Shown here: piece after piece, positions 12,041-36,469 of the stretch | How the letters are laid out: each line of letters opens with the position of its first letter | Numbering within the stretch: position 1 is the first letter of the stretch | NCBI GenBank assembly: GCA_023665865.1 | Contig: JAMPDC010000001.1 | Location: forward strand, 627,780-691,779 | Direction: 5' to 3' | Length of the DNA: 64,000 nt | DNA from: Staphylococcus sp. | GTDB lineage: Bacteria; Bacteroidota; Bacteroidia; Bacteroidales; Muribaculaceae | The notes under the pieces: generated by a model | What the model was told of the DNA's origin: nothing | Database searches by the model: none | What the model saw: the letters and a program-made list of their open reading frames with translations, nothing else | Program-made: the position numbers and the translations under genes

Positions 12041-14185
12041 TTATCTTTTGTTAAGTTTGAACACCTGGATGCCATCTTCACCAAATGCCACATAAATCTT
12101 ATCATTATGCAATGCAATATAGTTAGCTGACTTTTCAGATGCTGCGTGGTAATGAGTCACCTCGTTCATATTCTTATCAAGAACATAGACAAAGCTACCC
12201 ATGGCGACATAGATATAATTTGCATCAATCGCCACACCATTGGCCGGTACGCGACTGTTTTCACCTGCATGGAATTCCTTACCGTCATTAAGACGCTTCA
12301 GGCCTCCATGTCCGAGACATGCATAGATGTTTTCACCATCGATTGCAACAACATTCTTACCGTCAATCGGTGAAATTGTTCCGGCTTGATAAGTAGATGT
12401 TACATTACTGAAGGTATAATCATCTGCGCCATACACATTTACAGTTGATTCCGAAGAAGCGCCCGTAAATGAATTGAGTGAGAGAATCACAGTCTTGCCA
12501 TTTTCAACAGCCACATGCTTGGAAGAGCCGGTAGTCGGATGGAATGAGCCTTCAACCTTAGAGAAGTCAAGATTCAAAGCGCCATAGCCTCTGTAAGTAT
12601 TGACATAATAGTAGTTGCCCTGACGGATGATGCAGTTTCCATCACCGGCGTTCTTGTAACCTGCTTTGATCGGACCATTCTTGCCATCGGTATAAATCAC
12701 TTCGTCAGTTGTAAGTTCTTTAACCTTGAAATCATCACGGACACCTTCGCTCGCTGCGAAATCAATCGGGAGAGCACCTACAAAAGCGCCCTTATCAACG
12801 TGATTACCAACAGGGATAATAGTATTACCATCTACGATAACATGGTTGAAGTCATAGTCGGGAGAAATCATGTAGGAAAGAAGACTAAGTTTATTGCCAT
12901 TGTCTTCGATAACCTCAATGCAACCCTTCTGACCTTCGCCACGGAGATGGTAGGAAGCATAGGCTTTATCTCCTGCAAAAGTGATGCAAGTTGCCGAGAT
13001 GATACCGTGGTCATGGTCAGGATCCAGAGGATCGATATCGGTAATCTTCTCAATAATGATTTCAGGCTCGGGAGTGGGGTCGGGAGTAGGGTCAGGAGTA
13101 GAACCGCCACCGGGATATGCGTCATGGCAACCCGCTGCAGGTACAGAAGCCTGAAGATTATCGTTGCTGATAGTCAACTCAAGATCATTAACAGGACATT
13201 CCTTTTCATCATTTCCAATCAAAACCTTCTCAATGTCACAGATAAATCCTGCACCAATCGACTGTTTCGGCCATTCGATATTATTAGTCTTAAACACCTT
13301 CGCAGCAAATACGGCTTTATTACCATTCACTGTAAGACGAGTGTCAGCATTTGAGAACAAAGCCTCATTTGCCTCAACAAGGCCATTATCATCAAGTTCA
13401 ATCGAGCCTCCGTGCATCACAAGTTCGTTAGCCTTGAAATATGAAGCTTTAAAAGACCCAGCGTTAAATGTTATTTTTTCTTCTGCCACAAATGAACATG
13501 CAACTGCAGTTCCATTGAGACGAATCTCTCTGGCCTCAATAGACTCTTTGCTGAAGAATTCAGCTCCGGCATTAACTCCAAGGACATCACAAGAAATAGG
13601 CTGCGAAGAATAGAGTTTATCGCCCTCGCCGAGAGTGATACCTGTGATATCAAGCTCTCCATAATTGTATATATCAAGTTTCGGAACGATAGTGCTGCTA
13701 TATGTTATCTTACCAGTTCCAAGTACATAGATAGTACATCTACCTGCATCTTCAGCAGCACCTTTTAACCATTGAAGATTCAAAGTACCACCAACATAGA
13801 TTGTAATATCACCGGCGGCTAAATTAAGACCAGTTTCTAAAACTTCTCCTTCATTAAGATAGTAAGAACCGGTTGATAATGTGCCATAATTAATATTCTC
13901 GACCAATGAAATTGCCTCTGCGGGGATTGAAGGGCAAGCGGGCATTTCAAATGAAGATGCCGCTTCAGAACGAGAGGTAGCGGGAGTATAATTGATGATA
14001 CGGGATGCATCACTTGTTTTAACAGTGTATGATGCTGCTGTCTGGCCAGGTTGGGGCACATCATTTCCGTTATCGGGAGCATCGTCGCTACAAGCGGACA
14101 AAGATGCGAGGGCAAGCGCCACGACTCCTATGCCGAGCACATTGCGCACCTTTTGTGAATGAAAATCAAAAAATTTCTTTTCCAT
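12041..14185 (-). CDS. Large surface lipoprotein, beta-rich N-half and propeller-like C-half
   Basis: I do not recognise the family. The 714-residue protein has a lipoprotein signal with lipobox SLSAC (Cys32), followed by acidic SDD, which in Bacteroidetes favours surface export. Residues about 90-345 hold short beta-rich repeats like those of right-handed beta-helices. A Pro/Asp linker built on PDPTPDPTPEPE (364-375) separates them from a C-terminal half. There, repeats of the type VAIDxxxIYxxxG recur (for example VAIDGENIYACLG and VAIDANYIYVAMG), which suggests a beta-propeller. Base composition is visibly more AT-rich than the flanking core genes. It is monocistronic with its own terminator. 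Ligand binding or adhesion is possible but not shown. Confidence 0.75.
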   Translation of the reverse strand: MEKKFFDFHSQKVRNVLGIGVVALALASLSACSDDAPDNGNDVPQPGQTAASYTVKTSDASRIINYTPATSRSEAASSFEMPACPSIPAEAISLVENINYGTLSTGSYYLNEGEVLETGLNLAAGDITIYVGGTLNLQWLKGAAEDAGRCTIYVLGTGKITYSSTIVPKLDIYNYGELDITGITLGEGDKLYSSQPISCDVLGVNAGAEFFSKESIEAREIRLNGTAVACSFVAEEKITFNAGSFKASYFKANELVMHGGSIELDDNGLVEANEALFSNADTRLTVNGNKAVFAAKVFKTNNIEWPKQSIGAGFICDIEKVLIGNDEKECPVNDLELTISNDNLQASVPAAGCHDAYPGGGSTPDPTPDPTPEPEIIIEKITDIDPLDPDHDHGIISATCITFAGDKAYASYHLRGEGQKGCIEVIEDNGNKLSLLSYMISPDYDFNHVIVDGNTIIPVGNHVDKGAFVGALPIDFAASEGVRDDFKVKELTTDEVIYTDGKNGPIKAGYKNAGDGNCIIRQGNYYYVNTYRGYGALNLDFSKVEGSFHPTTGSSKHVAVENGKTVILSLNSFTGASSESTVNVYGADDYTFSNVTSTYQAGTISPIDGKNVVAIDGENIYACLGHGGLKRLNDGKEFHAGENSRVPANGVAIDANYIYVAMGSFVYVLDKNMNEVTHYHAASEKSANYIALHNDKIYVAFGEDGIQVFKLNKR

Positions 14186-14478: not shown

Positions 14479-14639
14479 GTAAACTTTTCTATAAAAACCG
14501 CATGATTGTGCTAAAAATTAACATTTTACCCCTAAAAAAAATTCCACCCCTCAACAGAAAGCACTCTATTGGGGGGTGGCTTATGCTCTGAAATCCGACA
14601 AAAAAGTTCTCCCGAAAGCAAGCCACCGAAAGACGAGAC

Positions 14640-14726
14640 GCCTCTCCGAGGCTTATATATTTCCCCTCACCCTATCCCCAAGCCATGCCTGGGGCTTCAT
14701 CATAACTTCTCTGCCTCCGGCAGAGC
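14640..14726 (-). repeat. Palindromic composite repeat, copy 1 (inverted)
   Basis: Read on the minus strand this copy has the same order as copies 2 and 3. A hairpin CTCTGCC-GGA-GGCAGAG (14725-14709) comes first, then ATGATGAA, then a CCCCA/TGGGG palindrome (14694-14676) and a spacer. The hairpin GCCTC-GGA-GAGGC (14652-14640) ends it. No protein is encoded. Confidence 0.8.
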
Positions 14727-14807
14727 ATATGCCGAGCACCACACATACACCCACAGAGCATATACCGAGCACCACCCACACCCCATCGGAGTGGCATGAA
14801 AAAAAAA
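14727..14807. repeat. Short direct repeats between palindromic copies 1 and 2
   Basis: An AGAGCATAT(G/A)CCGAGCACCAC segment occurs twice (from about 14722 and 14755). The second is followed by CACCCCATCGGAGTGGCATGA (about 14779-14799), and a related version recurs at about 14920-14959 between copies 2 and 3. The CCATCGGAGTGG part is itself an imperfect palindrome around GGA. Confidence 0.6.
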
Positions 14808-14896
14808 GCTCTACCGGAGGTAGAGCAGTCATGATGAAACCCCAGACAGGGTCTGGGGGACGGACAAACACCCTCATTAAAAAGCCTCGGAGAGGC
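14808..14896 (+). repeat. Palindromic composite repeat, copy 2
   Basis: Three hairpins in fixed order: GCTCTACC-GGA-GGTAGAGC (14808-14826), CCCCAGAC-AGG-GTCTGGGG (14840-14858) and GCCTC-GGA-GAGGC (14884-14896). ATGATGAAA stands before the second. Against copy 3 the first stem carries a compensated change (T-A instead of G-C), so the pairing is conserved although the sequence differs. Confidence 0.85.
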
Positions 14897-14964
14897 TGAC
14901 CGAGACCGCACCCTCCCGCAGAGCATATGCCGAGACCACACCCCATCGGAATGGCATGAAAAAA

Positions 14965-15052
14965 GCTCTGCCGGAGGCAGAGCAGTCGTGATGAAACCCC
15001 AGACAAGGTCTGGGGACTAATGCCCACCCTGTAAAAACAGCCTCGGAGAGGC
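14965..15052 (+). repeat. Palindromic composite repeat, copy 3
   Basis: Same order as copy 2: GCTCTGCC-GGA-GGCAGAGC (14965-14983), CCCCAGAC-AAG-GTCTGGGG (14997-15015) and GCCTC-GGA-GAGGC (15040-15052). It ends 115 bases past the relA/spoT stop codon and could also stop or stabilise that mRNA, as REP elements do elsewhere. Confidence 0.85.
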
Positions 15053-15167
15053 ATGAAAGACCTGCCCGAGCATGACATACAAATCATAAATGACAGAAAT
15101 AACAAAAGAATATATCTCAATCCATTTGTTATTTCCGTCAATTCTGAATTTCTATATCTCCTGAGAG

Positions 15168-17462
15168 CTATTTCTCGCCCTCCTCGTAGATGCGGACGCG
15201 GTCGGCCTTGCGGACACCGTCGATCTTCAGGATACTCTTGCATAGCTCCGTCACAGCGGCCGTGTTGGATACGAGCACACTCAGGTCGCAGCTGAACACC
15301 TCCTTGTCGGCCTCGATGTTGAGACTGCGGATGTCGATGTTGAGCGCTGTCGAGATCATGCGCGTCAACTCCTGCAGGATCCCGTGGCGGTCTATGCCCT
15401 CGATGCGGACATTGGCGAGGAAGCTGCCCGCCACCTCATCCCAGCGGGTGGCGAGGATGCGGGGGCCGAAGCTCGCCTTGAGCACCTGGGCGCGCGGACA
15501 GGTGAGAGAGTGGACCTCGACGGTACCCTCATCGGTGATGAAACCCATGACTTCGTCGCCTGGTATCGGGCGGCAACATTCGGCAAAGGCAAAGTTGCTC
15601 TCCTTGTCGTTAAACTTCAGCACATAGGTCTCCTTACGGTTGATGGCAGGGTGAGGCGTCTCCGGCTCCTCATCCGACCGTCCGATGGCCGAGCTGAGGA
15701 GCTTCTTGGCGCTCTGCTTCTTCTTGTCGCCGCCAAAGCCGAGGCGGAAGAGGCGCGAGACGAGCGAGCGGGCTCCACGCGAGGTGTTGACGTTGAGATA
15801 GTCGTCGATCGAGACCTCGCCGCTGCCCAGTTTATAGAAGAGCTCCTCGCGCGAGGCCACGTGGTAGGTGCCGAGGATCTTGGTCATCACACTGTTGTTG
15901 AGTATGATGTCGTTCTGCACGAGGAAATCGTCGAAAATCTTCTTGCCCTCCTCGATGACGGGTTGCTGGATGCGTCGCAGCTCCTTGCGGAGGCGGGTCT
16001 TGGCCTTGGCGGTTGCGAGAAAGCCCATCCACTCAGGCTTTGGCGCCTGGGAGTGGGAGGTGAGCACCTCCACCTGGTCGCCCGAGTTGAGGCGGTGGGA
16101 GAGCGGGACGAGTTTATGGTTGACCTTGCCGGCTATGCAGTGGATGCCGAGCTGCGAGTGGAGCGTGAAGGCCACATCGAGCACCGTCGCCCCCGCCGGG
16201 AGGGTCAGCAGCTCACCCTTGGGAGTGAAGACTACAATCTCCGTTGCGAAGAGATTGAGCTTGAGGGTATCGAGGAAGTCGATGGCGTTTGGCGTCGGAT
16301 CGTCGAGGATATCCTTGATGGTCTTCAGCCATACGTTGAGCTCACTCTCCTCCTCATGCTCCCCTATCTTGTATTTCCAATGGGCGGCAAAACCCTTCTC
16401 GGCTATCTCATCCATGCGGCGCGAGCGTATCTGCACCTCGATCCAGTTTCCGTCGGGCCCCATGAGGGTGACGTGGAGCGCCTGATAGCCGTTGGCCTTC
16501 GGATTGGTGATCCAGTCACGGGTGCGGTCGGGGTGCGGACGGTAGAGGTCGGTCAGGGCGGAGTAGATCTTGAAACACATCTCCTTTTCCGAGATCCCCT
16601 CCGGCTCGTCGAAGATGATTCGCATGGCATAGAGATCGTAGACCTCCTCAAAGGGGATATGCTTGGTGTCCATCTTACGCCAGATGGAATAGATGGATTT
16701 CAGACGGGCCTTGGCCTCATATTTCAGCCCCATGGAGTCAAGACGCTTGAGGATCGGGGTGGCGAAGTCGTTGTAGACCATCTCGCGTCCGGCCTCGCTC
16801 TGGGAGATGAGCTTGCCGATGCGCTCGTATTCCGTCGGATGCTCATATTTGAAGCTCAGATCCTCAAGCTCCGTCTTGATGGCGAAGAGTCCGAGGCGAT
16901 GGGCGAGCGGAGCGTAGATATAGAGGGTCTCGCCGGCAATCTTATACTGCTTGTTGGGAGCCATTGAGCCGAGGGTGCGCATGTTGTGAAGGCGGTCGGC
17001 CATCTTGATGAGCACCACCCGGATATCCTCGCTCATGGTCAGCAGGAGCTTGCGGAAGTTCTCGGCCTGGGCCGAAGCTTTGTCACCGAAGATGCCGCCG
17101 GATATCTTTGTGAGTCCCTCGACAATACGTGCGATCTTACGCCCGAAATGCTTCTCGATATCCTCGACGGTATATTCGGTGTCCTCGACGACATCGTGGA
17201 GCAAAGCCGCGCAGATCGATGTGGAGCCGAGGCCAATCTCCTGTGAGGCTATCTTGGCTACGGCTATCGGGTGGAGTATATAGGGTTCTCCCGAACGGCG
17301 GCGCACTCCTTTGTGGGCTTCTTTGGCGAAGCGGAATGCACGCTCGATGATGTCGACTTTCTTGCGGTGGTTGCTGGCGAGATAGCCGTCAAGCAAATCA
17401 CGGAATTGCTGCTCGACGTGAGCTTCCTCCTGCTCTGGGGTAAGACTATATTCTTCCTGCAT
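15168..17462 (-). CDS. RelA/SpoT family (p)ppGpp synthetase/hydrolase
   Basis: A 764-residue long-form RSH enzyme that makes and probably degrades the stringent-response alarmone (p)ppGpp. Domains in order: HD hydrolase (about 30-190, with LLHDVVEDTE containing His89-Asp90), synthetase (about 240-370, with KANGYQALHVTL), TGS (about 400-460), a helical and zinc-finger-like region (AECCRPIPGDE) and a C-terminal ACT domain. The HD motif is intact, and the synthetase region carries the basic WRKMD motif rather than the acidic form of monofunctional RelA. Both suggest a bifunctional enzyme. It follows the mannose-1-phosphate guanylyltransferase gene after 70 bases. The palindromic repeats lie just downstream. 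Confidence 0.95.
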   Translation of the reverse strand: MQEEYSLTPEQEEAHVEQQFRDLLDGYLASNHRKKVDIIERAFRFAKEAHKGVRRRSGEPYILHPIAVAKIASQEIGLGSTSICAALLHDVVEDTEYTVEDIEKHFGRKIARIVEGLTKISGGIFGDKASAQAENFRKLLLTMSEDIRVVLIKMADRLHNMRTLGSMAPNKQYKIAGETLYIYAPLAHRLGLFAIKTELEDLSFKYEHPTEYERIGKLISQSEAGREMVYNDFATPILKRLDSMGLKYEAKARLKSIYSIWRKMDTKHIPFEEVYDLYAMRIIFDEPEGISEKEMCFKIYSALTDLYRPHPDRTRDWITNPKANGYQALHVTLMGPDGNWIEVQIRSRRMDEIAEKGFAAHWKYKIGEHEEESELNVWLKTIKDILDDPTPNAIDFLDTLKLNLFATEIVVFTPKGELLTLPAGATVLDVAFTLHSQLGIHCIAGKVNHKLVPLSHRLNSGDQVEVLTSHSQAPKPEWMGFLATAKAKTRLRKELRRIQQPVIEEGKKIFDDFLVQNDIILNNSVMTKILGTYHVASREELFYKLGSGEVSIDDYLNVNTSRGARSLVSRLFRLGFGGDKKKQSAKKLLSSAIGRSDEEPETPHPAINRKETYVLKFNDKESNFAFAECCRPIPGDEVMGFITDEGTVEVHSLTCPRAQVLKASFGPRILATRWDEVAGSFLANVRIEGIDRHGILQELTRMISTALNIDIRSLNIEADKEVFSCDLSVLVSNTAAVTELCKSILKIDGVRKADRVRIYEEGEK

Positions 17463-36040: not shown

Positions 36041-36469
36041 GTGTATGCAAAATTAGTCAGAAAAACTAAAACGAGAAACATTTTGCTCCGAAAAGAAGAC
36101 ACATCTGTTCAAAACGTCGGCCTGACCCCCTCTCCGAGGGTCAGACTTGAGCGTCTCTTCCCTCCGGTCGAGGAAAGCTGCACGATTTTGCTCTCCTGCC
36201 TGAGGGGTGACTACAGCGCATCGCGCATCGCCCGCGCGGTCGAGGACTGCGACGCCCATCTGCTGAATCTCAATGTCACCTCCGACAGCGAGGAGGCCGA
36301 CAATCGCATCGTCGCCGAGCTGCGTGTCAGCCACCGCAACCCGGAGTCGGTCTGCCGCTCCCTCGAGCGCTATGGCTACGCGGTCATCGACGCCGACGGT
36401 GCCCCTCTGCCCGACGATTCCCTCCTCCGCTCGCGCTACGACGAACTGATGCTCTATCTCAATCTCTAA
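36041..36469 (+). CDS. ACT-like domain protein before nadK, start uncertain
   Basis: The open frame has no ATG near its start. The GTG at 36041 or the TTG at 36083 are the options. Residues about 45-140 form an ACT-like regulatory domain (TILLSCLRGDYSASRIARAV, then two-strand segments ending LMLYLNL). In Bacteroides the equivalent gene, as I recall it, is longer and has CBS domains before this part. Here the CBS part is absent and the promoter reads straight into the ACT part, so it may be a shortened version. nadK follows after 28 bases. Confidence 0.6.
   Translation: MYAKLVRKTKTRNILLRKEDTSVQNVGLTPSPRVRLERLFPPVEESCTILLSCLRGDYSASRIARAVEDCDAHLLNLNVTSDSEEADNRIVAELRVSHRNPESVCRSLERYGYAVIDADGAPLPDDSLLRSRYDELMLYLNL
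36048..36055 (-). promoter_or_regulatory. -7 box for pdxJ-exbB-exbD-tonB
   Basis: TAATTTTG on the minus strand, about 97 bases before the pdxJ ATG. It lies inside the 5' end of the plus-strand frame at 36041, so the promoters are divergent and overlapping. Confidence 0.45.

Follow-up and report, generated by a model that had tools for sequence, protein, structure and literature searches.

We propose that a ~90-bp repeat carrying three hairpins, found in three copies beside the relA/spoT gene of a Muribaculaceae genome, is a REPIN-like, non-autonomous mobile element of a Y1 transposase resembling TnpA-Y1 subclass 1.2, a reading to which we assign a probability of about 75%. The copies are dispersed, their stems covary, they tend to pair convergently, a Y1 gene lies between convergent units in relatives, and units are present in some relatives and absent from the corresponding places in others. 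In the 2018 survey that describes subclass 1.2 (PMC6006769), Table 1 lists no REP partner for these enzymes, and the units provide a candidate DNA partner that can be tested at the bench.

Structure of the three-hairpin unit

The relA/spoT gene occupies positions 15168–17462 on the minus strand of the 64-kb stretch of DNA analysed (the window), and the intergenic stretch at its 3′ side carries the cluster, with 113 bp between the end of unit 3 and the relA/spoT stop codon (15168). An earlier note, made from the sequence alone, had described three copies of a composite palindromic repeat here, one inverted and two direct, and our repeat and hairpin search of the window recovered the same three units of ~90 bp with three hairpins each in a fixed order (Table 1). 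Read 5′ to 3′, each unit consists of HP1, whose stem ends in C-GGA-G, followed by ~12 bases, a GAAA or GAAG tetranucleotide, HP2, ~25 bases and HP3. In all three, HP2 follows the pattern CCCC-x-GGGG and HP3 reads AGCCTC-GGA-GAGGC (core GCCTC-GGA-GAGGC), and the C-GGA-G tip that the note had assigned to the first and third hairpins is found in every unit. The compensated change that it had seen in HP1 is also real, a G-C to A-T exchange that separates GCTCTGCC-GGA-GGCAGAGC from GCTCTACC-GGA-GGTAGAGC. Short repeats occupy the spaces between units, and the cluster is overlapped by mechanical ORFs only (89–196 aa), in line with the note's statement that no protein is encoded.

Table 1. Positions in the window of the units, hairpins and short repeats of the relA/spoT cluster
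Feature	Position	Strand	Basis
Three-hairpin unit 1	14638..14727	- (HP1-HP2-HP3 order on - strand)	covariance model R1, 87.2 bits, E 3e-21
HP1 of unit 1, CTCTGCC-GGA-GGCAGAG on - strand	14709..14725	-	sequence
HP2 of unit 1, CCCC..GGGG stem with one G-T pair	14676..14694	-	sequence and covariance model
HP3 of unit 1, GCCTC-GGA-GAGGC	14640..14652	-	sequence
Three-hairpin unit 2	14807..14898	+	covariance model R1, 84.0 bits, E 2e-20
HP1 of unit 2, GCTCTACC-GGA-GGTAGAGC, compensated change relative to units 1 and 3	14808..14826	+	sequence
GAAA foot (proposed guide, role inferred) and HP2 of unit 2, CCCCAGACAGGGTCTGGGG	14836..14858	+	sequence and covariance model
HP3 of unit 2	14884..14896	+	sequence
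Three-hairpin unit 3	14964..15054	+	covariance model R1, 88.0 bits, E 2e-21
HP1 of unit 3, GCTCTGCC-GGA-GGCAGAGC	14965..14983	+	sequence
GAAA foot (proposed guide, role inferred) and HP2 of unit 3	14993..15015	+	sequence and covariance model
HP3 of unit 3	15040..15052	+	sequence
Two CAGAGCATATGCCGAG-type short repeats (at 14721 and, with 1 mismatch, 14754), which overlap unit 1 at its end and extend towards unit 2	14721..14769	+	repeat search
Third CAGAGCATATGCCGAG repeat, between units 2 and 3	14919..14934	+	repeat search

Covariance model R1 scores the cluster units at 84–88 bits and the next full-length match in the window at 17 bits; since R1 was built from the genome's copies, including these three, the scores are no independent test, and the repeats were found without the model too. 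The HP1 pattern with up to three mismatches gave four matches at three places (one place on both strands) where shuffles predict 0.01, and ATGATGAAACCCCAGAC gave three matches inside units and one elsewhere where 0.21 are expected. The 13-base HP3 core, with two mismatches allowed, matched four times against 2.6 expected, which is not significant; the three matches within units are exact. Between the relA/spoT stop codon and the cluster lies an AT-rich inverted repeat (15081–15150; 31-base arms, 81% complementary, 8-base spacer) that may belong to another repeat family or be a terminator, and a palindrome resembling it adjoins a unit cluster elsewhere (L048:1718–1795). A weak match to the unit model on the minus strand at 36126–36202 (17.4 bits, E 0.005) is possibly a decayed unit.

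The earlier note took the compensated change as a sign of selection on structure, and covariation exceeds that of shuffles in each of three alignments. Among the genome's own 39 copies, 96.4% of pair cells hold standard pairs, compared with 89.8% in shuffles, and the covariation score is 0.228, compared with 0.095 when shuffled and at most 0.056 in slid controls. The score rises to 0.632 (shuffled 0.187) for 56 units from 14 genomes and to 0.753 (shuffled 0.212, slid controls at most 0.103) for 93 units from 41 named-genome loci, both being alignments that were fitted to the model structure and therefore lean towards it. A weaker control counted the pairs that had changed at both positions: 4 of 500 shuffles of the 56-unit set, and 19 of 500 of the 93-unit set, reached the observed number. 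The named-genome alignment started from 43 of 80 loci, all with hits, of which 41 gave units; it left out L220, L222 and L241, which come from training genomes, and some weaker or one-sided loci such as L219. The structure of the unit is under selection.

While the stems vary, the tips stay constant: a GGA loop closes HP1 in 36 and HP3 in 38 of the 39 own copies, and in the named-genome set of 93 units HP1 has a GNA triloop in 63 of 92 cases and HP3 in 61 of 93, with GGA, GAA and GTA frequent and GCA rare. Stems of G-C pairs capped by a GNA loop are reported to form DNA mini-hairpins of extraordinary stability (PMC4686876), and the recurrent C-GNA-G tips argue, at the level of sequence, for folded DNA and not RNA as the functional form. 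DNA folding energy was uninformative as a pointer to the GGA strand, the two strands differing by 0 to 0.6 kcal/mol. The four bases 5′ of HP2 are GAAA in 25 and GAAG in 9 of the 38 own copies scored, with no GTAG, and the GT[AG]G of canonical REPs is absent from this genome's units, a point at which the REP likeness claimed by the note does not hold. In the 93 named-genome units this foot is mostly NTAA or NTAG, and GTAG occurs in seven, as counted among the 16 commonest feet listed.

Dispersal in the source genome and its relatives

The earlier note had reasoned that a mobile family would show as many dispersed intergenic copies with compensated stems in this genome and its relatives, and this is what we observed. 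A BLAST search with window positions 14780–15060 against the 2.69-Mb assembly returned 67 matches at E ≤ 10, among which 27 have E < 0.001 (own place included), and a covariance model from 39 copies located 41 strong units (E ≤ 7e-13) in 21 clusters together with weaker and partial ones. The 17 neighbouring pairs within 300 bp of each other comprise 13 convergent pairs, with their HP3s inside and gaps of 13–56 bp, three divergent pairs and one direct pair, and 26 of the 41 strong units belong to convergent pairs. The direct pair and one of the three divergent pairs belong to the relA/spoT cluster itself. Arrays of short GAGTCGTGAGTC or ACTCTCGACTC repeats flank the unit clusters of loci L034, L035, L036, L043, L044 and L045.

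Across the family, model R2 (E ≤ 1e-4) detects units in 110 of 247 genomes and in 27 of 30 genera; at most 17 unit candidates were scored per genome in this search, making the counts per genome lower bounds. Occurrence in 110 of the 247 gut Muribaculaceae searched makes the units an unrecognised source of differences between genes. Units and Y1 genes occur together more often than expected in Fisher tests that ignore kinship and for which several thresholds were tried: with any Y1 match (E ≤ 1e-3), 75 genomes have both, 35 units only, 50 Y1 only and 87 neither (p 1e-6), and with a close Y1 match (E ≤ 1e-58) the numbers are 31, 79, 1 and 136 (p 1.8e-11), so that 79 of the 110 unit-bearing genomes are without a close Y1. 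Eight genomes, the source genome and seven others, hold at least 10 units with no Y1 match, and five of the Y1-less, unit-rich genomes are at least 95% complete (G020, G065, G098, G106 and G145), which means that units can persist after the loss of a recognisable enzyme or exist without one. The source assembly (88.75% complete) contains no recognisable Y1, its best PF01797 match having an E value of 0.2, below the cut-off, and the profile of flanked enzymes matching nothing; the note's remark that the window holds no transposase thus extends to the whole assembly. The units of the source genome resemble a population whose enzyme has been lost or lies in the unassembled part.

Relatives differ in the presence of units at corresponding places. 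G020 and G012 share 95% identity around relA; where G012 has 11 bp, G020 has a segment of 239 bp that carries one unit. This segment, downstream of a gene that we take from its sequence to be aroB, also holds a partial duplication of the end of that gene and is therefore no clean single insertion; its ends share AAATATC, a possible 7–8 bp shared end at a site that the duplication complicates, and which may or may not be target-related. G019 carries a 1.67-kb composite segment, including a Y1 element (L086), that G006 lacks, as does G001 according to the match list. Beside this element lies another repeated stretch (L086:1605–2234), parts of which are 92% identical in G001 and G021. L047 was set aside as an empty-site test, its spacer measuring 208 bp in G008 and 242 bp here between comparable ends and being longer in G005 and G021. 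From these differences in presence and absence between relatives we infer movement.

At the relA/spoT locus itself, a readable relA end was available in 13 of 14 loci, and four relatives (G018, G008, G020 and G012) were seen to have carA next to relA, with a spacer of 151–223 bp that contains neither units nor a C-GNA-G hairpin. In the source genome a lipoprotein-like gene and the units lie between relA/spoT and carA, an arrangement that is lineage-specific and no clean insertion of units. The lipoprotein-like ORF (714 aa, minus strand, window positions 12041–14185) is absent from that place in all four relatives.

The Y1 transposase between convergent units

The earlier note had named a Y1-type transposase with the same hairpins on its flanks as the mark of a mobile REP-like family, and in relatives such genes are found beside hairpins of this kind. 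Among 61 genomes searched, unit and PF01797 matches lie side by side in at least four (G003, G016, G032 and G035), and reading of Y1 loci in relatives showed genes of ~147 aa between two convergent three-hairpin units. We read 30 Muribaculaceae Y1 loci, part of a longer list of Y1 matches from the 247 family genomes, and found convergent units on both sides in 28, on one side in one and on neither in one; for the 21 loci whose genomes contributed no rows to model R2, the corresponding numbers are 19, one and one. A profile scan of named genomes gave at least 576 confirmed Y1 relatives, and among the best 80 of these units flank the gene on both sides in 36, on one side in 18 and on neither in 26 (R2, E ≤ 0.05, within 300 bp and on the expected strands). 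By eye, about 13 of 14 inspected loci of the 26 without hits carry such hairpin units on at least one side, which, as a judgement by eye, makes it probable that the model undercounts.

Within 300 bp of the named Y1 genes, hits on the left are on the plus strand in 45 cases and the minus strand in 2, and hits on the right are on the minus strand in 49 and the plus strand in 11. Hits are also concentrated near the gene, with 107 in 46 kb near Y1 compared with 28 in 368 kb farther away, and a control of 173 kb, made up of 44 loci from the genus that had been retrieved because of other genes, gave none (E ≤ 0.05). Loci flanked on both sides include one from a strain rather than a metagenome-assembled genome (MAG), Algoriphagus yeomjeoni DSM 23446 (L260), and MAGs labelled Verrucomicrobia (L239, L294), Planctomycetes (L292, and L293 under the name Fimbriiglobus), Spirochaetaceae (L258) and Deltaproteobacteria (L250), labels that may reflect contamination.

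By its sequence, the flanked enzyme belongs with the IS200/IS605-like TnpA proteins, bears the subclass 1.2 signature and is not a REP transposase. All 21 aligned proteins match the NCBIfam IS200 model NF033573 and PF01797 (E ≤ 0.001), and 20 of the 21 match the REP transposase model more weakly; one member scores 67.6 bits with the former (cut-off 55) and 27.4 bits with the latter (cut-off 80). The best PDB match of the flanked enzymes is the IS608 TnpA, and the other solved matches are transposases of the same kind. The Y---Q--HH motif, which is the signature of subclass 1.2 (PMC6006769), is present in 77 of 78 readable proteins from the 80 named loci and in all 29 read from the 30 Muribaculaceae loci, the two sets having a few genes in common. 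Subclass 2.6 was our first guess for the driver and was dropped on reading this motif, and a canonical RAYT is ruled out by the NCBIfam models, the PDB profile and the Y motif. In a tree, 106 Y1 rows split from five other Y1 rows (SH-aLRT 99), and flanked and unflanked rows intermingle, as seen in a quick tree with few columns and poor resolution. Given this mixture we claim no single flanked clade; it is consistent with an old and general association between Y1 and units.

The comparison that the earlier note had drawn with REP/BIME elements moved by RAYT transposases holds in part, and the class of enzyme has to be corrected. As with REP, BIME and REPIN sequences and their RAYTs (TnpA-REP, classes 2.2–2.8), the palindromes are dispersed between genes, often as inverted pairs, flank a Y1 HUH gene, vary in their stems between genomes together with the enzyme, and carry a tetranucleotide at the foot of one hairpin. 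However, a REP is one palindrome of 20–40 bp with a GT[AG]G foot, whereas these units hold three hairpins in fixed order over ~90 bp with a foot of mostly GAAA/GAAG or NTAR, and RAYTs are class 2 TnpA proteins (Y---NP), whereas the flanked enzyme is IS200-like with Y---Q--HH. We judge that the system works like REP/REPIN while lacking two defining features, the GT[AG]G foot and the class 2 enzyme.

Subclass 1.2 as described in the survey agrees in length (~148 aa), in the motifs xH[IV]H and Y---Q--HH, in its occurrence in Bacteroidetes and in its few copies per genome (PMC6006769). It differs in the entry ‘no’ for REP in Table 1 of that survey, whereas units lie on at least one side at 54 of the 80 named loci and convergently in 28 of the 30 Muribaculaceae loci, and in the WQ motif of the same table, which is absent from all 12 flanked Muribaculaceae proteins aligned; these have an invariant W followed by A, G or C, and WQ is present in L089. 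Subclass 2.6 of Bacteroidetes is likewise described with ‘atypical secondary structures’ on the flanks of its Y1 genes, further copies of which occur in other parts of the genome, but its enzyme is given as YIH[QN]NP and ~179 aa (PMC6006769); the layout of those structures may overlap with the present one. IS608 and its IS200/IS605 relatives provide the closest solved structures and have hairpin ends with guide tetranucleotides (PMC8266576), but these ends are described as palindromic and as forming no terminal inverted repeat (PMC2817692, PMC8266576), whereas the present units place three hairpins in inverted repeats of ~90 bp. TIRYTs (subclass 2.1) also have a Y1 gene between inverted repeats, but their enzyme is described as class 2 with an HTH tail and their flanks as GGGG[AT][CG]A[CG] (PMC6006769). 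A search of titles and abstracts, with most subscription journals and all preprints outside it, found none on a three-hairpin repeat or on a REP-like partner of an IS200-like or subclass 1.2 Y1.

Proposed mechanism and alternatives

We suggest that the active element would consist of two ~90-bp three-hairpin units in convergent orientation, with the HP3s inside and the HP1s outside, enclosing either a ~147-aa Y1 (HUH) gene from the IS200/IS605 side or a short spacer (13–56 bp here). The enzyme would recognise, bind and cleave the folded strand when the DNA becomes single-stranded. In IS200/IS605 elements a guide tetranucleotide 5′ of the palindrome chooses the cleavage sites, and the GTAG of REPs may act alike (PMC8266576); HP2 with its 5′ tetranucleotide (mostly GAAA or GAAG in this genome, frequently NTAA or NTAG in more distant bacteria) could be the corresponding guide-bearing palindrome, as in IS608 and REPs. 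HP1 and HP3, usually with C-GNA-G triloops, may serve as extra binding hairpins that are recognised by their GNA tips and mark the ends. A convergent pair would provide two ends of opposite strand, as in REPINs, and the short elements would be mobilised in trans and persist at landing sites downstream of genes.

On a broader view, which we hold with somewhat less confidence, IS200-like class 1 transposases gave rise, apart from the RAYT lineage, to a REPIN-like system of their own: a broad Y1 branch of Bacteroidota (with Planctomycetes, Verrucomicrobia and Spirochaetaceae labels as well), a conserved three-hairpin code in which two C-GNA-G single-stranded DNA hairpins surround a guide-bearing palindrome in inverted pairs, and short elements maintained as populations in the genomes of many gut and environmental bacteria. 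REP-like parasitism of single-stranded DNA would then have arisen in the IS200 branch as well.

The strongest competitor, though we think it distinctly less probable, is that the units are the ends of a classical IS200-type insertion sequence, so that the whole Y1 element moves, the dispersed pairs are internally deleted copies (MITEs), and no domesticated, REPtron-like state exists. The Y1 gene of L086 in G019 does lie between exact 101-bp inverted three-hairpin repeats, G157 and G232 each have two Y1 copies of equal score on one contig, and the proteins match the IS200 model, one member scoring above its cut-off. The copy numbers point the other way, with 1–9 Y1 matches per genome, mostly 1–4, against up to 51 units among the counts listed. 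Moreover, IS200/IS605 elements are described without terminal inverted repeats (PMC2817692), and subclass 1.2 is reported to have a mean of 1.7 copies and a mean identity of 36.2%, and to lack IS properties (PMC6006769).

We consider it improbable that selection keeps the units as RNA structures for gene regulation, for instance as terminators or 3′-end stabilisers, and that their repetition is only incidental. Their gene context is what such a role would predict, since all 19 of the 21 clusters examined with a simple ORF caller lie between tandem (13) or convergent (6) genes and none between divergent ones; the window also holds six terminator-like sites where 1.4 are expected, among them the HP1s of units 2 and 3, each followed by a T-run on the minus, relA/spoT strand. 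That the repeat ends relA/spoT mRNA, a role raised in the earlier note, may hold here, but it does not generalise: the A-tract needed at HP1 is present in only 4 of the 39 own copies, for which reason we rejected the units as general intrinsic terminators. Nor would RNA function account for the units standing symmetrically around Y1 genes in distant bacteria, or for their absence, by our search, from 15 of 27 genomes of the genus, eight of them at least 93% complete. Of eight Rfam matches reported for the six loci searched, none reaches the gathering threshold.

Least probable by our estimate are host-selected chromosome-structure sites (cruciform, gyrase or nucleoid-protein sites) spread by gene conversion rather than transposition. 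Convergent pairs could in principle extrude long cruciforms, and the clusters are unevenly placed on the source contig (C1 of G000; empty arcs at 1.80–2.50 Mb and 2.50–0.50 Mb; 44 of 20,000 random placements as uneven), but neither the Y1 gene inside pairs nor the patchy occurrence among relatives would be explained. At one place on this contig (L299, C1 1005450–1006030), tandem repeats of ~148 bp each contain an HP1-like CCTGTCGGAGACAGG hairpin (once CTGAG), and the last of them runs on into a complete unit.
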